From assembly GCA_033471095.1 (NCBI GenBank), contig CP136752.1, positions 550,195-598,279 on the forward strand: a stretch of DNA of 48,085 bases, in the 5' to 3' direction. Below the pieces are notes generated by a model that was not told where the DNA came from, did no database searches, and worked only from the letters and a program-made list of their open reading frames with translations. The stretch comes from Nitrosopumilaceae archaeon AB1(1) (GTDB taxonomy: Archaea > Thermoproteota > Nitrososphaeria > Nitrososphaerales > Nitrosopumilaceae). Positions within the stretch are counted from its first letter, which is position 1. Each line of letters opens with the position of its first letter. Position numbers and translations under genes: made by a program. This document shows, piece by piece, positions 22,992 through 35,416 of the stretch.

Positions 22992-24452
22992 CTATACATC
23001 AAAATATAAATAAAATTCATGTGGATGTGGTCTCACTGAAATCTCTTTTTGATCTTGTCTCTCCAACACAATTATTTTATCAATTACTTCATTAGAAAAT
23101 ACTGGATTGAGGAATTTGCGATCGCTTTCCAATTCATCAAGTGCCTCACCTAGATTAGCAGGTAAAATATCAATTTTCTTTTTGTCACGCATAGCTTTTG
23201 TCATTTTGAAAATATCTTCTTTAGTTTGTTCTCCTGGATCTGACTTCTTTTTTATACCATCTAATCCTGCTGCTAAGACTGCTGAAAATACAAGGTATGG
23301 ATTTGCAGATGGATCAGGGGCTCTGAATTCTAGTCGTTTGAGTTTAGAGTATTTATCACCAGAAAAGTGTTCAGGAATTCTAACAATAGCAAATCTATTA
23401 CTTGAACTCCATGCAATGTATACTGGGGCCTCATATCCTGGTACCAATCTATGGTAAGAGTTTGTTGTAGGATTGGCTATGGCACATAGAGCTTTTGCGT
23501 GATTAATTATTCCGCCACAAAAGTACCTACCAATCTGGCTCAATTCTGCGTCCTCTTTTTTATCATAAAACGCATTTTGCTTATTCTTCCATAGACTTAC
23601 GTTCGTATGCATTCCAAATCCTGCATCCATGGCTATTGGTTTTGGCATCATAGTTGCAATTTTGTTATGATTTTTCACTACATTACGCACGACAAACTTG
23701 TAAGACTGTGTGGCATCTGCTGCATTTGTCATATAGTCATATTTGATATCAATCTCACACTGTCCTGCTGTTGCAACTTCGTGATGGTGATTGTCGCAAA
23801 GAACGCCAAAATTTTCATTCAAAATATCGACACATTCATTTCTAAATGGCGTGAGTGTATCTGATGGTGTACTAGGATAGTAACCTTCCTTTAGTCCCAT
23901 TGGAAAACCTGTACCCTCTTTACTCCATGGAGATTCAACTGATTCTATTGAATATGATTGACCTTTGTATGGTGTAAGTACAGCCCAATGTACTTCATCG
24001 AATACAAAAAATTCAACCTCCGGTCCCCAATAACTAAAATCAAATCCTTGTGTTTTCACAAATTTTTCTGCCTTTTGACATATTCCGCGCGGGTCACTGT
24101 CCAATCGTCCACGTCCTCTGCCCCAATAAATATCGCAGAGTAATCTAGCAGTTTTTTTCTCTGTTAGCCATGGTATAATTGCAAATGTATTTGGATCAGG
24201 TTTTAAAATAAGATCAGAATCATCAATGGTTGTAAATCCAACAATTGATGAACCATCAAGTTTCGGTAATCCATCAACCATCTGATCTTGTGTAAATGTA
24301 CTTGCAGAGATGGTTGTGTGGTGAAATCGTCCAGTTAGACCTGTAAATTGAAAATCTATAAACTTTATATTTTCATGACTAATCAGTGAGAAAACATCAT
24401 CTACAGAATATTTAATTTGTAAAGATTCACCGTGGTTTAGCTTGTAAGGCAA
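22992..24452 (-). CDS. glnA: Glutamine synthetase, type I
   Basis: Makes glutamine from glutamate, ammonium and ATP, the central entry of ammonium into biomass. 486 residues. Motifs: SYWGPEVEFFVFDE (about 140-153, metal Glu), HHHEVATAGQCEID, GFGMHTNVSLW (the usual second His of MHxH is Asn here), NPTTNSYHRLVPGYEAPVYI and RAPDPSANPYL. No Tyr is seen at the adenylylation position, and no GlnE-type control is expected in archaea. It heads the minus-strand run that continues into thpR with TAG and ATG touching. Confidence 0.94.
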   Translation of the reverse strand: MPYKLNHGESLQIKYSVDDVFSLISHENIKFIDFQFTGLTGRFHHTTISASTFTQDQMVDGLPKLDGSSIVGFTTIDDSDLILKPDPNTFAIIPWLTEKKTARLLCDIYWGRGRGRLDSDPRGICQKAEKFVKTQGFDFSYWGPEVEFFVFDEVHWAVLTPYKGQSYSIESVESPWSKEGTGFPMGLKEGYYPSTPSDTLTPFRNECVDILNENFGVLCDNHHHEVATAGQCEIDIKYDYMTNAADATQSYKFVVRNVVKNHNKIATMMPKPIAMDAGFGMHTNVSLWKNKQNAFYDKKEDAELSQIGRYFCGGIINHAKALCAIANPTTNSYHRLVPGYEAPVYIAWSSSNRFAIVRIPEHFSGDKYSKLKRLEFRAPDPSANPYLVFSAVLAAGLDGIKKKSDPGEQTKEDIFKMTKAMRDKKKIDILPANLGEALDELESDRKFLNPVFSNEVIDKIIVLERQDQKEISVRPHPHEFYLYFDV

Positions 24453-29632: not shown

Positions 29633-31378
29633 TCATTCTGATTCGCCTTCACCACGACCAAGATCACCAATACCAAACTCTCTCATGGTCTTCTCCCTCT
29701 CATCGTTTAGACTAGAAATCTCCTCTGCCTCTCGCTTCTCATCACCCTGATACACAGTTCTAATTGGCCATGGTATTCGTATATCATATTTTTTAAACTC
29801 CTCATAAATCATTAATCGAAGATCACTTTTTACTTTAAACTGAGACCCATAGTCTCTTACGTATACCCATAGAGCAAAATCCAAGGATGAATCACTAAAT
29901 GCGTTAAATCGTACTGTTGGTTGATTTAGATCTACTGTATATATTGTATCACAACCACAACTGGCCTGATTACGTTTAATATTTGGACATTGCTTTTGTA
30001 TAATCAAATGTTTTCCCTTTGAATCTTTTATTTCCGTCATTGCGCGTGTACCTATTTTGACTAGTATCGATGCAACTTGTTTTGGATCATTCAAATATGA
30101 TACACCCACATCAACTATAGCCGGTACCAATTTAATATTTTTAGAATAGTTTATGATCTGTGCATTTACTAGTTGACGTGTTGGTATTATAGCAATTGAT
30201 TCGTTTAATCCATGTCGTACATAAGTTACACGTGGAGTTATCTTATGGACATACCCATTATAACCTGATTCTAATTTTACTCTATCCCCCTCGACAAAAA
30301 TCTTATCTTTTCGAATTATTATATATGCAAAATAATTCTGCATGGTCTCTTGTAGTGCAAAACCAACTCCTACAGCCATACCACCGGTGGCAGTGGCCAA
30401 TACAAACAAATCTATTCCCCACCAACTTGCAACTCCAATTGCTACAGCTAGAAAAATCCCTATTGGTAAAAGCTGTTTGAAAGATTTTGGCAACTCTTGT
30501 CTCTTCTTTTTGGCATATCCGGGAGGACGAGCACCGGCCTCTATCTTTTCATAATCATTTATTCTCTTCTCCTCACGCCATGTGTCTATTCGATAAATCT
30601 CCTCAGGATTTCCATCTAGGCTCATTTTACGACCAGATAAATTATCTCCACTAGTGCACTTTTCTAGATATTCTACATACTTGATACGTTCTGATTCCTT
30701 CCATTCAGAGTATGGATCATCTACTAGTTTTTCAAAACTTCCTATAGAGTTACCTCTTGACGTACTGAATTTTTCTAAAATTAATCTACCTTCCTTTGTC
30801 TCCAAATTTTTCTCATACTCTATTTTATCGATATCTTCAGGAGGATTTGCAGGTGGAACCCATTTGTATAATCTATGAAATAGAACATCTACATCATCCT
30901 TGAATCCTTTCATCATTCTCCATCCTTCAAAATCTTCACGCTCAAGCATTCTTTTTTCTCGTTTTGTAATTATAATTGGAACTAAATGTGCAACTGTATA
31001 CCCAATGACTAAAATATTTATACTATTCAGTATCATTGCGAATAATTCTTTTGCTGGATTACTAATACTAGACGATTCTATATCTACATCTAGATCAAAT
31101 AGTTGTATGTATCCATTTATTCCAGTTATAAGTGCAATTGCGAATAATGGTAATATTGCAATACGAACAAATCTTGCAGTGTGTGGTCTTGTATAACTAA
31201 ATCTATGTGACATTGTAACTTTACCAATTTTTTTATAACCGATTGCAATAGTAATTAATCCCACAACAAGTATAGCTAGAGCAATTTGTAATGATGGTGA
31301 CGTACTTATGATCTCGACTATACCTTGAAACTGGTTGATCTGACCTGTTACTGCTTGTCCTAATTCTTGTTCTGCCAA
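29633..31378 (-). CDS. MscS-family mechanosensitive channel
   Basis: A large (581-residue) membrane channel starting at TTG 31378. Predicted membrane helices lie at about 29-48, 70-90, 108-130 and 310-335. Between the third and the last is a long cytoplasmic insert (about 135-305) with many charged residues, not present in minimal MscS. The pore-lining TM3 equivalent is ATATGGMAVGVGFALQETMQ (about 329-348), followed by the beta domain (IIIRKDKIFVEGDRVKLESG...GYVHKI). The channel opens when turgor rises and releases small solutes. It is divergent from the aminomutase gene, with 85 bp between starts. Confidence 0.9.
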   Translation of the reverse strand: MAEQELGQAVTGQINQFQGIVEIISTSPSLQIALAILVVGLITIAIGYKKIGKVTMSHRFSYTRPHTARFVRIAILPLFAIALITGINGYIQLFDLDVDIESSSISNPAKELFAMILNSINILVIGYTVAHLVPIIITKREKRMLEREDFEGWRMMKGFKDDVDVLFHRLYKWVPPANPPEDIDKIEYEKNLETKEGRLILEKFSTSRGNSIGSFEKLVDDPYSEWKESERIKYVEYLEKCTSGDNLSGRKMSLDGNPEEIYRIDTWREEKRINDYEKIEAGARPPGYAKKKRQELPKSFKQLLPIGIFLAVAIGVASWWGIDLFVLATATGGMAVGVGFALQETMQNYFAYIIIRKDKIFVEGDRVKLESGYNGYVHKITPRVTYVRHGLNESIAIIPTRQLVNAQIINYSKNIKLVPAIVDVGVSYLNDPKQVASILVKIGTRAMTEIKDSKGKHLIIQKQCPNIKRNQASCGCDTIYTVDLNQPTVRFNAFSDSSLDFALWVYVRDYGSQFKVKSDLRLMIYEEFKKYDIRIPWPIRTVYQGDEKREAEEISSLNDEREKTMREFGIGDLGRGEGESE

Positions 31379-31463
31379 TTTGTATTTTGTAGATTAAAAC
31401 GCCTAAAAATACTTTTTATAATATTGAGTTAACTTTAAACACGGGATACGATATAATAGTACA

Positions 31464-32816
31464 TTGGCCAGTCAAATCACTACAGAATTTACACAAGACG
31501 ACTCACCGCGTATAAAATCATACACATTAATGAATTTCGAAAAATTAGAGCAAATTAATAATTTGTCAGACAAACAAATTCACGAGATAAAAGTTGTGGG
31601 AAATGTACTACCGTTCAAGTCAAATAATTATGTCATTGAACAACTGATAAACTGGAATGACATACCGAATGATCCTATGTTCATACTGACTTTTCCTCAG
31701 CGTGATATGTTGAAATCAAATCACTTTAATCTTATGGAAGCTGCTTTGAGTAGCGGAGATAAAAAAAATATTCAAGAGACTGCAAATACGATCAGATTAC
31801 AACTAAATCCACATCCTGCAGGTCAAATGGAATTAAATGTTCCAAAATTAAAAGACGGAACTCAATTATTTGGTATTCAACATAAATATTCTGAAACTTG
31901 TTTGTTTTTTCCTAGCCAAAGTCAAACTTGTCATGCGTATTGTAGCTTTTGTTTTCGCTGGCCACAATTTGTAGGAATGGATGACATGAAATTTGCTATG
32001 AAAGAAGGTGAACAACTAGTGCAATATCTAAAAGAGCATCCAGAAATTACTGATGTGTTATTTACCGGTGGTGATCCAATGATAATGAAAGCACGCATAT
32101 TCTCGACATATGTGAATACTTTACTTGAAGCAGATGTACCTAATCTGAAAACAATTCGAATTGGTACTAAAGCTCTAACTTTTTGGCCTTACAAATTTCT
32201 CACAGATGACGATTCTGATGAAATGTTAAATGTATTCAAACATGTGACATCTAATAAAATTCATTTAGCAATAATGTCACATTTTAATCACTCAGTGGAA
32301 TTGTCCACCGATTCTGTCAAGAGTGCTATATTCAAAATTAAACAAACTGGAGCAGAAATTAGAACACAATCTCCATTACTTGCACACATAAACGATGATG
32401 CAAACATATGGAAAACTATGTGGCAGAAGCAGGTTCAATTGGGATGTATTCCATACTACATGTTTATGGCAAGAGATACTGGTGCACAACATTACTTTAG
32501 CGTGCCACTAGTTCAAGCCTATGAATTATATCGTTCTGCGTACATGCAGGTCAGTGGTCTTGCTAGAACCGTTAGAGGTCCTAGCATGTCTGCAACACCA
32601 GGTAAAGTTTTGATCGATGGTATACCTACTATTAACGGTGAACGTGTATTGAGTATGCGCTTTTTGCAAGGTAGAAACCCTGATTGGGTTCAAAAACCAT
32701 TTTATGCTAAATATGATGAAAATGCGATATGGTTAGATGAACTTAAACCGGCCTTTGAAGATAAATTTTTCTTTGAGAAGGATCCCATATACAAACCAGC
32801 CTCTAAATTGACATAA
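31464..32816 (+). CDS. KamA-family radical SAM 2,3-aminomutase (possibly glutamate-type)
   Basis: A 450-residue radical SAM/PLP enzyme starting at TTG 31464. The cluster motif is CHAYCSFCFRW (about residue 156 on), and TGGDP (about 202-206) follows. Such enzymes move an amino group from C2 to C3. By eye against lysine 2,3-aminomutase, the PLP lysine aligns with Lys381 (SATPGKVLIDG). The two lysine-binding aspartates (Asp293 and Asp330 in KamA) align with Arg337 and Ser374. The C-terminal zinc cysteines of KamA are missing. In glutamate 2,3-aminomutase those positions are Lys and Asn, so an acidic substrate is plausible. The second glnA-like gene follows 63 bp downstream; MscS is divergent. 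Confidence 0.82.
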   Translation: MASQITTEFTQDDSPRIKSYTLMNFEKLEQINNLSDKQIHEIKVVGNVLPFKSNNYVIEQLINWNDIPNDPMFILTFPQRDMLKSNHFNLMEAALSSGDKKNIQETANTIRLQLNPHPAGQMELNVPKLKDGTQLFGIQHKYSETCLFFPSQSQTCHAYCSFCFRWPQFVGMDDMKFAMKEGEQLVQYLKEHPEITDVLFTGGDPMIMKARIFSTYVNTLLEADVPNLKTIRIGTKALTFWPYKFLTDDDSDEMLNVFKHVTSNKIHLAIMSHFNHSVELSTDSVKSAIFKIKQTGAEIRTQSPLLAHINDDANIWKTMWQKQVQLGCIPYYMFMARDTGAQHYFSVPLVQAYELYRSAYMQVSGLARTVRGPSMSATPGKVLIDGIPTINGERVLSMRFLQGRNPDWVQKPFYAKYDENAIWLDELKPAFEDKFFFEKDPIYKPASKLT

Positions 32817-32879
32817 TTTACTATATAGTTTAAACTTTCTTACTAAATCAGTTTAGTATAAAAAACTACAATTTAACGC

Positions 32880-34325
32880 ATGGATACAAATCAGGTCTTT
32901 GAGATAATAGAGAAGCAGAATATAACATTCCTTGATTTCTGGTTTGTAGATATCTTCGGTGAATTACACAGAATGGGAATGCCCAGTTATGCTGTATCTG
33001 AATCTAATTTTACCGATGGATTAGAGAAACTCGATGCAAGCTCTATTCGTGGATTTAAAGATGTTAATCAATCCGATATGATACTAAAACCTGATCCTGA
33101 TTCATTTTGTATTTTACCACCAGATTATGATAATGGTACAAGAAAGAATGGTAGGATATTTTGTGATCTTTATGAGGCAAATACTAAATCCCCAACTAGA
33201 TACGGAAGAGATTCTAGAGGGATTGTTGCAAAAGCTGAAGAACGTTTGAAACAATTTAATCTAACACATACACACTGGGGACCTGAAATAGAATTTTTTG
33301 TGTTTGATGCAATCAATGTATATCCATCACCATATGCAGCTACTCATTCGTATGGTGGTTCTGGTTATTCAATTGAATCCAAAGAATCTCCATGGGCAAA
33401 GGGGAATATTAGTACTGCCATCGACATTAAAGAAGGATATTATCCATCACAACCCAAAGATACACTTGAAGTATTTAGAAAAAATGTTTGTGATGATTTA
33501 TATCATTACTTTGGAATAAAAATAGAAGCTGAACATCATGAAGTTGCAACATCTGGACAATGTGAAATCAATTTACTATACGATAACATGAAAATAATGG
33601 CAGATAATGTAATTACGGTCAAAAACGTGACCAAAGTTAAAGCCAAAAATTCAAACAAAGTGGCCACATTCATGCCCAAACCAATCTTTGGTGATAATGC
33701 ATCTGCTATGCATGTACATCAAAGTATTTGGAGCGATGATTCGAATAAAATGTTTGACAAAGATGATGATATCACTCAACTAAGTCAGATGGGCAGATAC
33801 TACATTGGAGGCATACTAGAGCACGCATCTACAATATGTTCAATATCGAATCCTACAACCAATTCCTATAAACGACTAGTCCCTGGTTTTGAGGCCCCCG
33901 TTTACATATGTTGGGGAATTGGAAATCGTTCTGCAGCAGTACGAGTACCAATGTATAATCGTGATAATCAAAATAGTAAAAGAATCGAGTATCGTGTACC
34001 TGACCCAACTGCAAACATCTACTTGTTAGAGAGCGCACTACTCCTTGCCGGTCTTGATGGAATTAATAAGAAAATTGATCCTGGAGATCCTATAAAAGAT
34101 AATATCTACAAAATGCCTGATAGTAAAAAACGCGAATATGGAATTAAATCACTTCCTTCTAATCTCCAAATTGCACTAAACGCATTAGAAAATGACTCGG
34201 CATTTCTTGAAAAAGAATTTACCTCAGATTTCCTAGACACATACGTTGAATTGAAACATGCAGAGTTTTCTGCATTCGCACAGACCCCTACTGCATGGGA
34301 AGTATCCATGTATGCTGACGCATAA
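32880..34325 (+). CDS. glnA: Second glutamine synthetase-family protein
   Basis: A 481-residue GS homolog clearly divergent from the one at 22992. Catalytic blocks are kept: HWGPEIEFFVFDA (about 134-146), EHHEVATSGQCEINL, ASAMHVHQSIW (intact second His, unlike paralog 1), NPTTNSYKRLVPGFEAPVYI, NRSAAVRVP and YRVPDPTANIYLLES. A Tyr sits in DNIYKM near the adenylylation position of bacterial enzymes, but no such control is expected here. A TATA-like TATAAAAA (32857-32864) lies just upstream. Plain glutamine synthesis is the default call; its place after the aminomutase raises use on beta-glutamate. Confidence 0.92.
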   Translation: MDTNQVFEIIEKQNITFLDFWFVDIFGELHRMGMPSYAVSESNFTDGLEKLDASSIRGFKDVNQSDMILKPDPDSFCILPPDYDNGTRKNGRIFCDLYEANTKSPTRYGRDSRGIVAKAEERLKQFNLTHTHWGPEIEFFVFDAINVYPSPYAATHSYGGSGYSIESKESPWAKGNISTAIDIKEGYYPSQPKDTLEVFRKNVCDDLYHYFGIKIEAEHHEVATSGQCEINLLYDNMKIMADNVITVKNVTKVKAKNSNKVATFMPKPIFGDNASAMHVHQSIWSDDSNKMFDKDDDITQLSQMGRYYIGGILEHASTICSISNPTTNSYKRLVPGFEAPVYICWGIGNRSAAVRVPMYNRDNQNSKRIEYRVPDPTANIYLLESALLLAGLDGINKKIDPGDPIKDNIYKMPDSKKREYGIKSLPSNLQIALNALENDSAFLEKEFTSDFLDTYVELKHAEFSAFAQTPTAWEVSMYADA

Positions 34326-34501: not shown

Positions 34502-35416
34502 ATGGTTAAAACAGAAAAATCATCAGGCGTTAAATGTCCCCGTTGTAATAAAGGCAAACTAGTGACCGATAATGAATCTGGTGAAATGTTTTGTACAAAA
34601 TGTGGTTTTGTAGTATCTGAAAAGATTGAAGAATCTGGTCCAGAGTGGCGCTCCTTTACACAAGATGAACACGGAGATAGAGCAAGAGCTGGTGCTCCAA
34701 CATCACTAACAATGCATGATATGGGTCTTGCTACAATAATTAATCCAATAAATAAAGATGCTTCAGGCAAACCTCTTGCAGCATCTATGAAAAGTACAAT
34801 TGAGAGACTTCGTACTTGGGATAGTAGAAGTCAAGTACACGAACCAGTAGATAGAAACTTTCGTCAAGCATTTAGTGAATTGAATAGATTAAAAGATAAA
34901 CTAGCAATATCTGACGCTGTTATTGAAAAGGCAGCATACATTTATCGTAAGGCACTTGAAAAAGGACTGGTACGAGGTCGTTCTATTTCTGCTTTAATGG
35001 CATCTGCTCTTTATGCTGCATGTAGAGATACATCAACACCAAGAAATCTAAAAGATGTTGAACAAGCCGCAAACATAAAACGTAAAGATATTGCAAGATG
35101 TTATCGATTACTTGTTAAAGAATTAGATTTGAGAATGCCTGTAACAAGTTCTATTCAATGTGTTGCTCGAATAGCAAGTCTCATTAATATTAAAGAATCT
35201 ACAAAACGTTATGCAGTTGAAGTGTTAAAAAAGGCACAAGAAAATGAAGTTTCTGCAGGAAAAGATCCAATGGGTCTAGCAGCAGCAGCACTATACCTGT
35301 CTTGTGTAAAATATAATGAAGAGAAAACTCAGCGAGATATTGCCGAAGCTGCAAATGTTACTGAAGTGACAATCCGTAATAGATACAAAGGTCTTAAAGA
35401 ATCTTTAAACATCTAG
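34502..35416 (+). CDS. tfb: Transcription initiation factor TFB
   Basis: The archaeal TFIIB homolog that binds TBP-DNA and recruits RNA polymerase. 304 residues, complete. The N-terminal zinc ribbon is Cys12, Cys15, Cys31, Cys34; the B-reader region is ESGPEWRSFTQDE (about 44-56). Two cyclin repeats follow, starting about 115 and about 210, with SALMASALYAACRDTSTPRN and MGLAAAALYLSCVKYNEEKT as their core helices. Thaumarchaea often carry several TFBs, so this may be one of a set. The end overlaps the converging antiporter gene by 4 bp. Confidence 0.96.
   Translation: MVKTEKSSGVKCPRCNKGKLVTDNESGEMFCTKCGFVVSEKIEESGPEWRSFTQDEHGDRARAGAPTSLTMHDMGLATIINPINKDASGKPLAASMKSTIERLRTWDSRSQVHEPVDRNFRQAFSELNRLKDKLAISDAVIEKAAYIYRKALEKGLVRGRSISALMASALYAACRDTSTPRNLKDVEQAANIKRKDIARCYRLLVKELDLRMPVTSSIQCVARIASLINIKESTKRYAVEVLKKAQENEVSAGKDPMGLAAAALYLSCVKYNEEKTQRDIAEAANVTEVTIRNRYKGLKESLNI

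Follow-up and report, generated by a model that had tools for sequence, protein, structure and literature searches.

Three adjacent genes of Nitrosopumilaceae archaeon AB1(1), encoding an MscS-family mechanosensitive channel, a KamA-like radical-SAM/PLP aminomutase and a second glutamine synthetase (GS2), probably form a beta-glutamate osmolyte locus of the Nitrosopumilaceae. We consider it likely that the aminomutase forms beta-glutamate from L-glutamate through 2,3-migration of the amino group, a radical-SAM/PLP reaction, as an earlier note on this sequence had proposed. This assignment is strongly supported by active-site alignment, by relatives of the IdnL4 type and by the metabolite content of Nitrosopumilus maritimus. 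In N. maritimus SCM1, no identified metabolite is more abundant than beta-glutamic acid, at 730 mM; the compound increases with ocean depth and did not occur in the phytoplankton cultures of the survey (Heal et al. 2021, PMC8269262), and the accessible part of that paper names no gene for it. Our literature search, which covered open-access journal papers, found no paper linking an aminomutase or a beta-glutamate gene to these archaea, in agreement with the earlier note, which knew of no such thaumarchaeal locus. Genome G044, which we take to be this strain and which has an ectoine synthase, as SCM1 should, carries the aminomutase, GS2 and MscS genes together in a row.

In the mechanism that we propose, Arg337 and other invariant arginines would recognise the distal carboxylate of the substrate where the aspartates of lysine 2,3-aminomutase (LAM) hold the lysine amine. 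Beta-glutamate, which is not used in protein, would build up as the main anionic compatible solute, and the divergently transcribed MscS would let it out on hypo-osmotic shock. GS2 of some lineages, AB1(1) among them, could then amidate part of the beta-glutamate to zwitterionic beta-glutamine.

Layout of the locus

The window (the whole stretch of 48,085 nucleotides that was analysed) covers bases 550195-598279 of a 1.455-Mb single-contig genome of the family Nitrosopumilaceae, and its relevant features are listed in Table 1. Gene order and strands are as reported previously, and re-measurement of the gaps gave the same spacing. The 85-bp region between the divergent genes contains a TTTTTATAA element ~45 bp ahead of the aminomutase start, and presumably holds the promoters of both MscS and the aminomutase. 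GS2 may be transcribed separately from the aminomutase, because a TATA-like TATAAAA lies in the 63-bp gap shortly ahead of its start. The 1.455-Mb genome contains exactly two PF00120 genes, GS2 and the housekeeping GS1, so the description of GS2 as a second glutamine synthetase was correct. The transcription factor B (TFB) gene 3' of GS2 is also found near the aminomutase in some relatives (e.g. 69 bp downstream in L063), though not generally.

Table 1. Positions within the window of the genes and intergenic regions discussed in the text.
Feature	Position	Strand	Basis or remark
MscS-family mechanosensitive channel gene, 581 aa	29633..31378	-	Pfam MS_channel_2nd/3rd; divergent from aminomutase
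Intergenic region between MscS and aminomutase genes, 85 bp	31379..31463	.	sequence
KamA-like radical-SAM/PLP aminomutase gene, 450 aa; proposed glutamate 2,3-aminomutase (beta-glutamate synthase)	31464..32816	+	key residues: Fe-S Cys156/160/163, PLP Lys381, Arg337, Ser374
Gap between aminomutase and GS2 genes, 63 bp	32817..32879	.	sequence
Second glutamine synthetase gene GS2, 481 aa; candidate beta-glutamine synthetase	32880..34325	+	
Housekeeping glutamine synthetase gene GS1	22992..24452	-	comparison gene outside the block
Transcription factor B gene	34502-35416	+	3' of GS2

The aminomutase, its active site and its relatives

The aminomutase branches deeply within the lysine 2,3-aminomutase (KamA) family. 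It has the CxxxCxxC motif and PLP lysine of the superfamily and matches the KamA family profile TIGR00238 at E=3e-38, although its 131 bits fall below the cutoff of 199. An AlphaFold model built from 17 homologs reached a pLDDT of 79.6; an earlier model from 12 sequences had a pLDDT of 67 and was poor around the active site, before phage homologs were added. In Foldseek, the best match of the final model was by far lysine 2,3-aminomutase 2a5h (E 1.5e-17; next protein 1.7e-5). Profile and fold agree with its initial description as KamA-like. Scores against narrower models were low: 124 bits for lys_2_3_AblA (TIGR03820; cutoff 525) and 104 bits for the glutamate 2,3-aminomutase model EAM (TIGR04368; cutoff 650), and the protein is also far from the curated arginine aminomutase model. 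We rejected membership in TIGR03820 on the score, on Arg337 and Ser374 at the Asp sites and on the lack of a C-terminal Cys cluster; membership in the EAM equivalog was rejected on the score and on Arg/Ser where EAM has Lys/Asn.

A gap-free HMMER alignment to 2a5h places Arg337 on LAM Asp293. If the HMMER register is extended to the PLP lysine, over a stretch that HMMER itself did not align, Lys381 coincides with that lysine and Ser374 with Asp330. The family alignment comprises 64 homolog rows, contributed by archaea, Bacteroidota, Actinobacteria and Burkholderiales. R337, R368 and K381 show no exception in it, and D338 is almost invariant; C156/C160/C163 are likewise invariant among the homologs. 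Ser occupies position 374 in Bacteroidota and in 50 of the 51 rows from archaea; most actinobacteria have Val there. Three Cys after K381, corresponding to the C-terminal zinc cysteines, occur in none of the 64 rows, and the family alignment has Asp at the Cys268 position. The by-eye reading of the earlier note, with its PLP lysine, its two substituted aspartates and its missing zinc cysteines, is therefore borne out: an alignment check for Asp at both lysine-binding positions found Arg337 and Ser374 there instead. In glutamate 2,3-aminomutase, the two lysine-binding Asp are replaced by Lys and Asn (PMC3965090), as that reading had stated. A cation at the Asp293 position would fit a substrate with a distal carboxylate. 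Judged from the alignments, the assignment to glutamate appears strongly supported by the invariant Arg at this position, which parallels the Lys/Asn signature of EAM; counting against it are the 104 of 650 bits and the failure to see IdnL4 activity in vitro.

Full-length bacterial homologs, found by tblastn of plasmids, share 45-52% identity with the archaeal enzyme. One of them, in Streptomyces sp. NBC_00334, lies within a polyketide cluster of the incednine macrolactam type. The best solved relatives of its neighbours are 3wmr, 5jjq, 8k4r, 6akd and 5czc, and a PLP enzyme follows directly after it; we take these structures to be VinJ (3wmr), IdnL1 (5jjq), VinM/IdnL7 (8k4r/6akd) and VinK (5czc). 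Through this presumed IdnL4 orthologue, the archaeal enzyme has full-length homology to the radical-SAM enzyme of a 3-aminobutyrate-starter macrolactam cluster. In incednine biosynthesis, feeding showed beta-glutamate to be an intermediate, which IdnL3 decarboxylates; the radical-SAM gene idnL4 is required, and IdnL4, whose activity was not seen in vitro, has been assigned to the conversion of L-glutamate to beta-glutamate (PMC11284099).

The neighbourhoods of other relatives contain NRPS genes, hydrazine-type genes (Rhodococcus) or CoA metabolism genes (Amycolatopsis), and the wider family may therefore have several uses. In the Rhodococcus sp. DK176 plasmid (L075:5023-19991), the relative is accompanied by cupin, SidA-type monooxygenase, class I tRNA-ligase-like and MupA-like genes, a set resembling hydrazine-forming natural product pathways. 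In a midpoint-rooted tree the archaeal clade (99/99) adjoins Bacteroidota with a joint support of 100/100, a topology that would be compatible with one transfer; inspection of the Bacteroidota neighbourhoods revealed no shared partner gene.

Homologs are also present on uncultivated marine tailed-phage contigs from IMG/VR (L156:7995-9263, L157:8025-9293, L158:3204-4472, L159:4474-5742 and L160:3317-4585). These encode 422 aa at 53-55% identity, keep all key active-site residues and lie directly upstream of the terminase large subunit gene. The phage aminomutase has no PHROG family match and no full-length relative in the phage records searched, and is an apparent auxiliary metabolic gene. On a further IMG/VR contig (L155:1-6045), a thaumarchaeal MscS-aminomutase-TFB block abuts genes of virion-structural type (phrog_3287 and phrog_1276 matches), and may represent a provirus border, a virus-borne copy or a chimeric assembly.

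Distribution and partner genes

We surveyed 250 genomes of the class, 146 of them Nitrosopumilaceae. The full-length aminomutase is present in 108 of the 146, at 60-75% identity outside the window's own genome, and the rest of the class gave weak partial KamA matches only. MscS occurs in 98 genomes, 96 of which have the aminomutase, with the two genes divergent and adjacent in 92 of these. GS2 occurs in 83 genomes, 80 with the aminomutase, and in 64 of the 80 it follows the aminomutase immediately on the same strand; a gene neighbourhood search of this kind had been put forward with the original proposal. Both associations are highly significant by Fisher's test when kinship among genomes is ignored (MscS p=2e-21, GS2 p=3.5e-13), and the gene arrangement is far beyond chance. 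Nonetheless, an unrelated PRPP synthetase gene adjoining MscS is likewise syntenic in 29 of 35 loci, so gene order alone proves little, and we dropped neighbourhood conservation as sole proof. The joint presence or absence of MscS and aminomutase is more telling than order, although block deletion could produce the same pattern.

Several further features of these genomes bear on osmolyte physiology. True ectoine synthase (E<1e-50) is found in only 11 of the 250 class genomes, and ectoine synthase, AblB and any KamA-family gene besides the aminomutase are all missing from the window genome. Carriers of the aminomutase are not strictly marine, since the gene also occurs in the genome that we take to be that of the soil archaeon N. 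koreense MY1. As a salinity proxy, proteome acidity around GS1 was compared between 20 aminomutase-negative and 20 aminomutase-positive genomes. Net charge did not differ (p=0.15). When one high-GC locus with spurious ORFs was left out, proteins with pI<5.5 made up a fraction of 0.26 in positives versus 0.14 in negatives (p=7e-4), a difference confounded by genus, and the salinity link was set aside as evidence.

The MscS gene product exceeds the gathering scores of PF00924 and PF21082, and so has both the beta-domain and the C-terminal domain of the family. A partnership of the channel with the aminomutase is supported by neighbourhood and co-occurrence, and we lean slightly towards MscS acting as a release valve for beta-glutamate. 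All 32 homologs of this MscS subfamily have a conserved Cys insert, CP-x(n)-SCGCD, in the C-terminal region, which might give the channel a metal-binding or redox site.

GS2 scores 504 bits against TIGR00653 (GlnA; cutoff 429) and qualifies as a type I GlnA. Across 43 GS2 sequences it retains D50, E131, Y179, E212, E220, N264, H269, R321, E327, R339, R344 and R359, which make up the metal, ammonium, phosphate and glutamate sites. At positions 51, 265 and 267 (Salmonella numbering) Gly is replaced by Ala in all 43, versus Gly in GS1 and bacterial GS. Accommodation of the shifted amino group of a substrate is plausible for GS2, because positions 264-265 contact the amino-acid moiety of glutamate. 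That GS2 is a beta-glutamine synthetase is a suggestion we make with some doubt. In SCM1, conversion of beta-glutamate to beta-glutamine can be at most partial under the metabolome conditions, because the presumed SCM1 genome has GS2, yet the measured pool is beta-glutamate. The earlier note had the pair of enzymes make beta-glutamate and then beta-glutamine: the first step is strongly supported and the second weakly so, with the GS2 pocket substitutions and co-occurrence with the aminomutase in its favour, and the measured pool and the 28 of 108 aminomutase genomes without GS2 against it. These 28 include all Nitrosopelagicus loci examined, and among 15 Nitrosopumilales loci from named records, mostly Nitrosopelagicus, aminomutase and MscS are kept and GS2 is nearby in only two. 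Almost every genome of the family that was probed has GS1, at 72-80% identity, whether or not the aminomutase is present. The GS1 clade has Ala/Ser where the glutamate-binding loop (DAG.GMH) normally carries Asn264, which is unusual for an apparently sole glutamine synthetase.

Alternative readings and known systems

That the enzyme acts as a lysine 2,3-aminomutase, supplying beta-lysine that might be acetylated to give an osmolyte, is very improbable. While 2a5h is its nearest structure, lys_2_3_AblA is among its best-scoring specific NCBIfam models and NCBI names the bacterial relatives 'lysine 2,3-aminomutase', that score reaches only about a fourth of the required value, neither Asp that binds lysine in LAM is present, with an invariant Arg at one of the two sites, and beta-lysine has not been reported in N. 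maritimus; residues, score and the missing AblB led us to reject lysine as the substrate. A different acidic or neutral amino acid, or a secondary metabolite, is an unlikely though less remote choice, with N. maritimus then making beta-glutamate by another route, such as one through CoA. The very different clusters that house the relatives speak for it, as does the NMR work that ruled out a glutamate aminomutase in methanogens (PMC1224877). Against this, the aminomutase is single-copy and conserved beside MscS across Nitrosopumilaceae with no biosynthetic cluster, and R337, D338, R368 and K381 are common to archaeal and incednine-type members.

The remaining alternative competes only with the partner roles and leaves the main enzyme assignment intact: the aminomutase makes beta-glutamate, MscS is a general channel and GS2 an ordinary ammonium-assimilating isozyme, both mere syntenic neighbours. 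We give this a little under an even chance. It accommodates the equal synteny of PRPP synthetase, the complete catalytic residues and GlnA score of GS2, the absence of GS2 from Nitrosopelagicus loci and co-loss by block deletion. It accounts less well for the seven genomes in which GS2 and aminomutase co-occur without being directly adjacent, for the clade-invariant GS2 substitutions, and for the rarity of MscS without the aminomutase (only 2 of 146 genomes).

Taking the glutamate assignment and the partner roles together, we tentatively envisage that the principal solute of most marine ammonia-oxidising archaea is the product of a transferred radical-SAM glutamate 2,3-aminomutase, whose closest sampled relatives are in Bacteroidota and which is convergent with the methanogen route; that these archaea let the solute out through a dedicated MscS and, in some lineages, turn it into beta-glutamine with a re-specialised GS; and that marine tailed phages carry the enzyme to raise host beta-glutamate or turgor. 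KamA-type glutamate 2,3-aminomutases, beta-glutamate osmolytes and MscS channels are already known. The literature searched did not describe what we propose here, an archaeal route of KamA type to beta-glutamate whose gene forms a block with that of a channel. In the sources as far as available, beta-glutamate is a metabolite without a gene, present on a molar scale in one of the ocean's most abundant groups and rising with depth; the locus offers a specific candidate enzyme, a genomic marker for beta-glutamate producers and, in MscS, a candidate exit through which the compound would reach the pool of dissolved organic nitrogen.

Comparison with characterised systems places the archaeal locus among several partial parallels. 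KamA/AblA (2a5h) shares its fold and cofactors, and differs in having the lysine-binding Asp pair and the Zn cysteines. Clostridial EAM likewise has the KamA-superfamily radical-SAM/PLP fold and a cationic residue instead of LAM Asp293, but pairs Lys with Asn where the archaeal enzyme has Arg and Ser, differs enough to leave the latter at 104 of the required 650 bits, and comes from anaerobic hosts, unlike the archaeal enzyme. The Streptomyces homolog (L076), standing in for IdnL4's own sequence as the presumed orthologue, is full-length, 45% identical and equipped with the same radical-SAM motif, R337, D338, R368 and K381, whereas position 374 is Ser in the archaeal enzyme and Val in most actinobacteria. 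In the IdnL4 pathway, furthermore, beta-glutamate is decarboxylated to a polyketide starter, while the archaeal locus has no decarboxylase or cluster, its partners being a channel and a GS. The methanogen abl operon also yields an archaeal osmolyte beta-amino acid from an aminomutase, but with the AblB acetyltransferase that the window genome lacks. Finally, beta-glutamate is a known osmolyte of methanogens, for which a CoA route was proposed, and Methanohalophilus makes beta-glutamine with a glutamine synthetase (PMC1224877), as the earlier note had stated. The compatible solutes are the same as those proposed here, and if our assignment is true, the radical-SAM aminomutase of the Nitrosopumilaceae provides a route to beta-glutamate distinct from the CoA-thioester route of methanogens.
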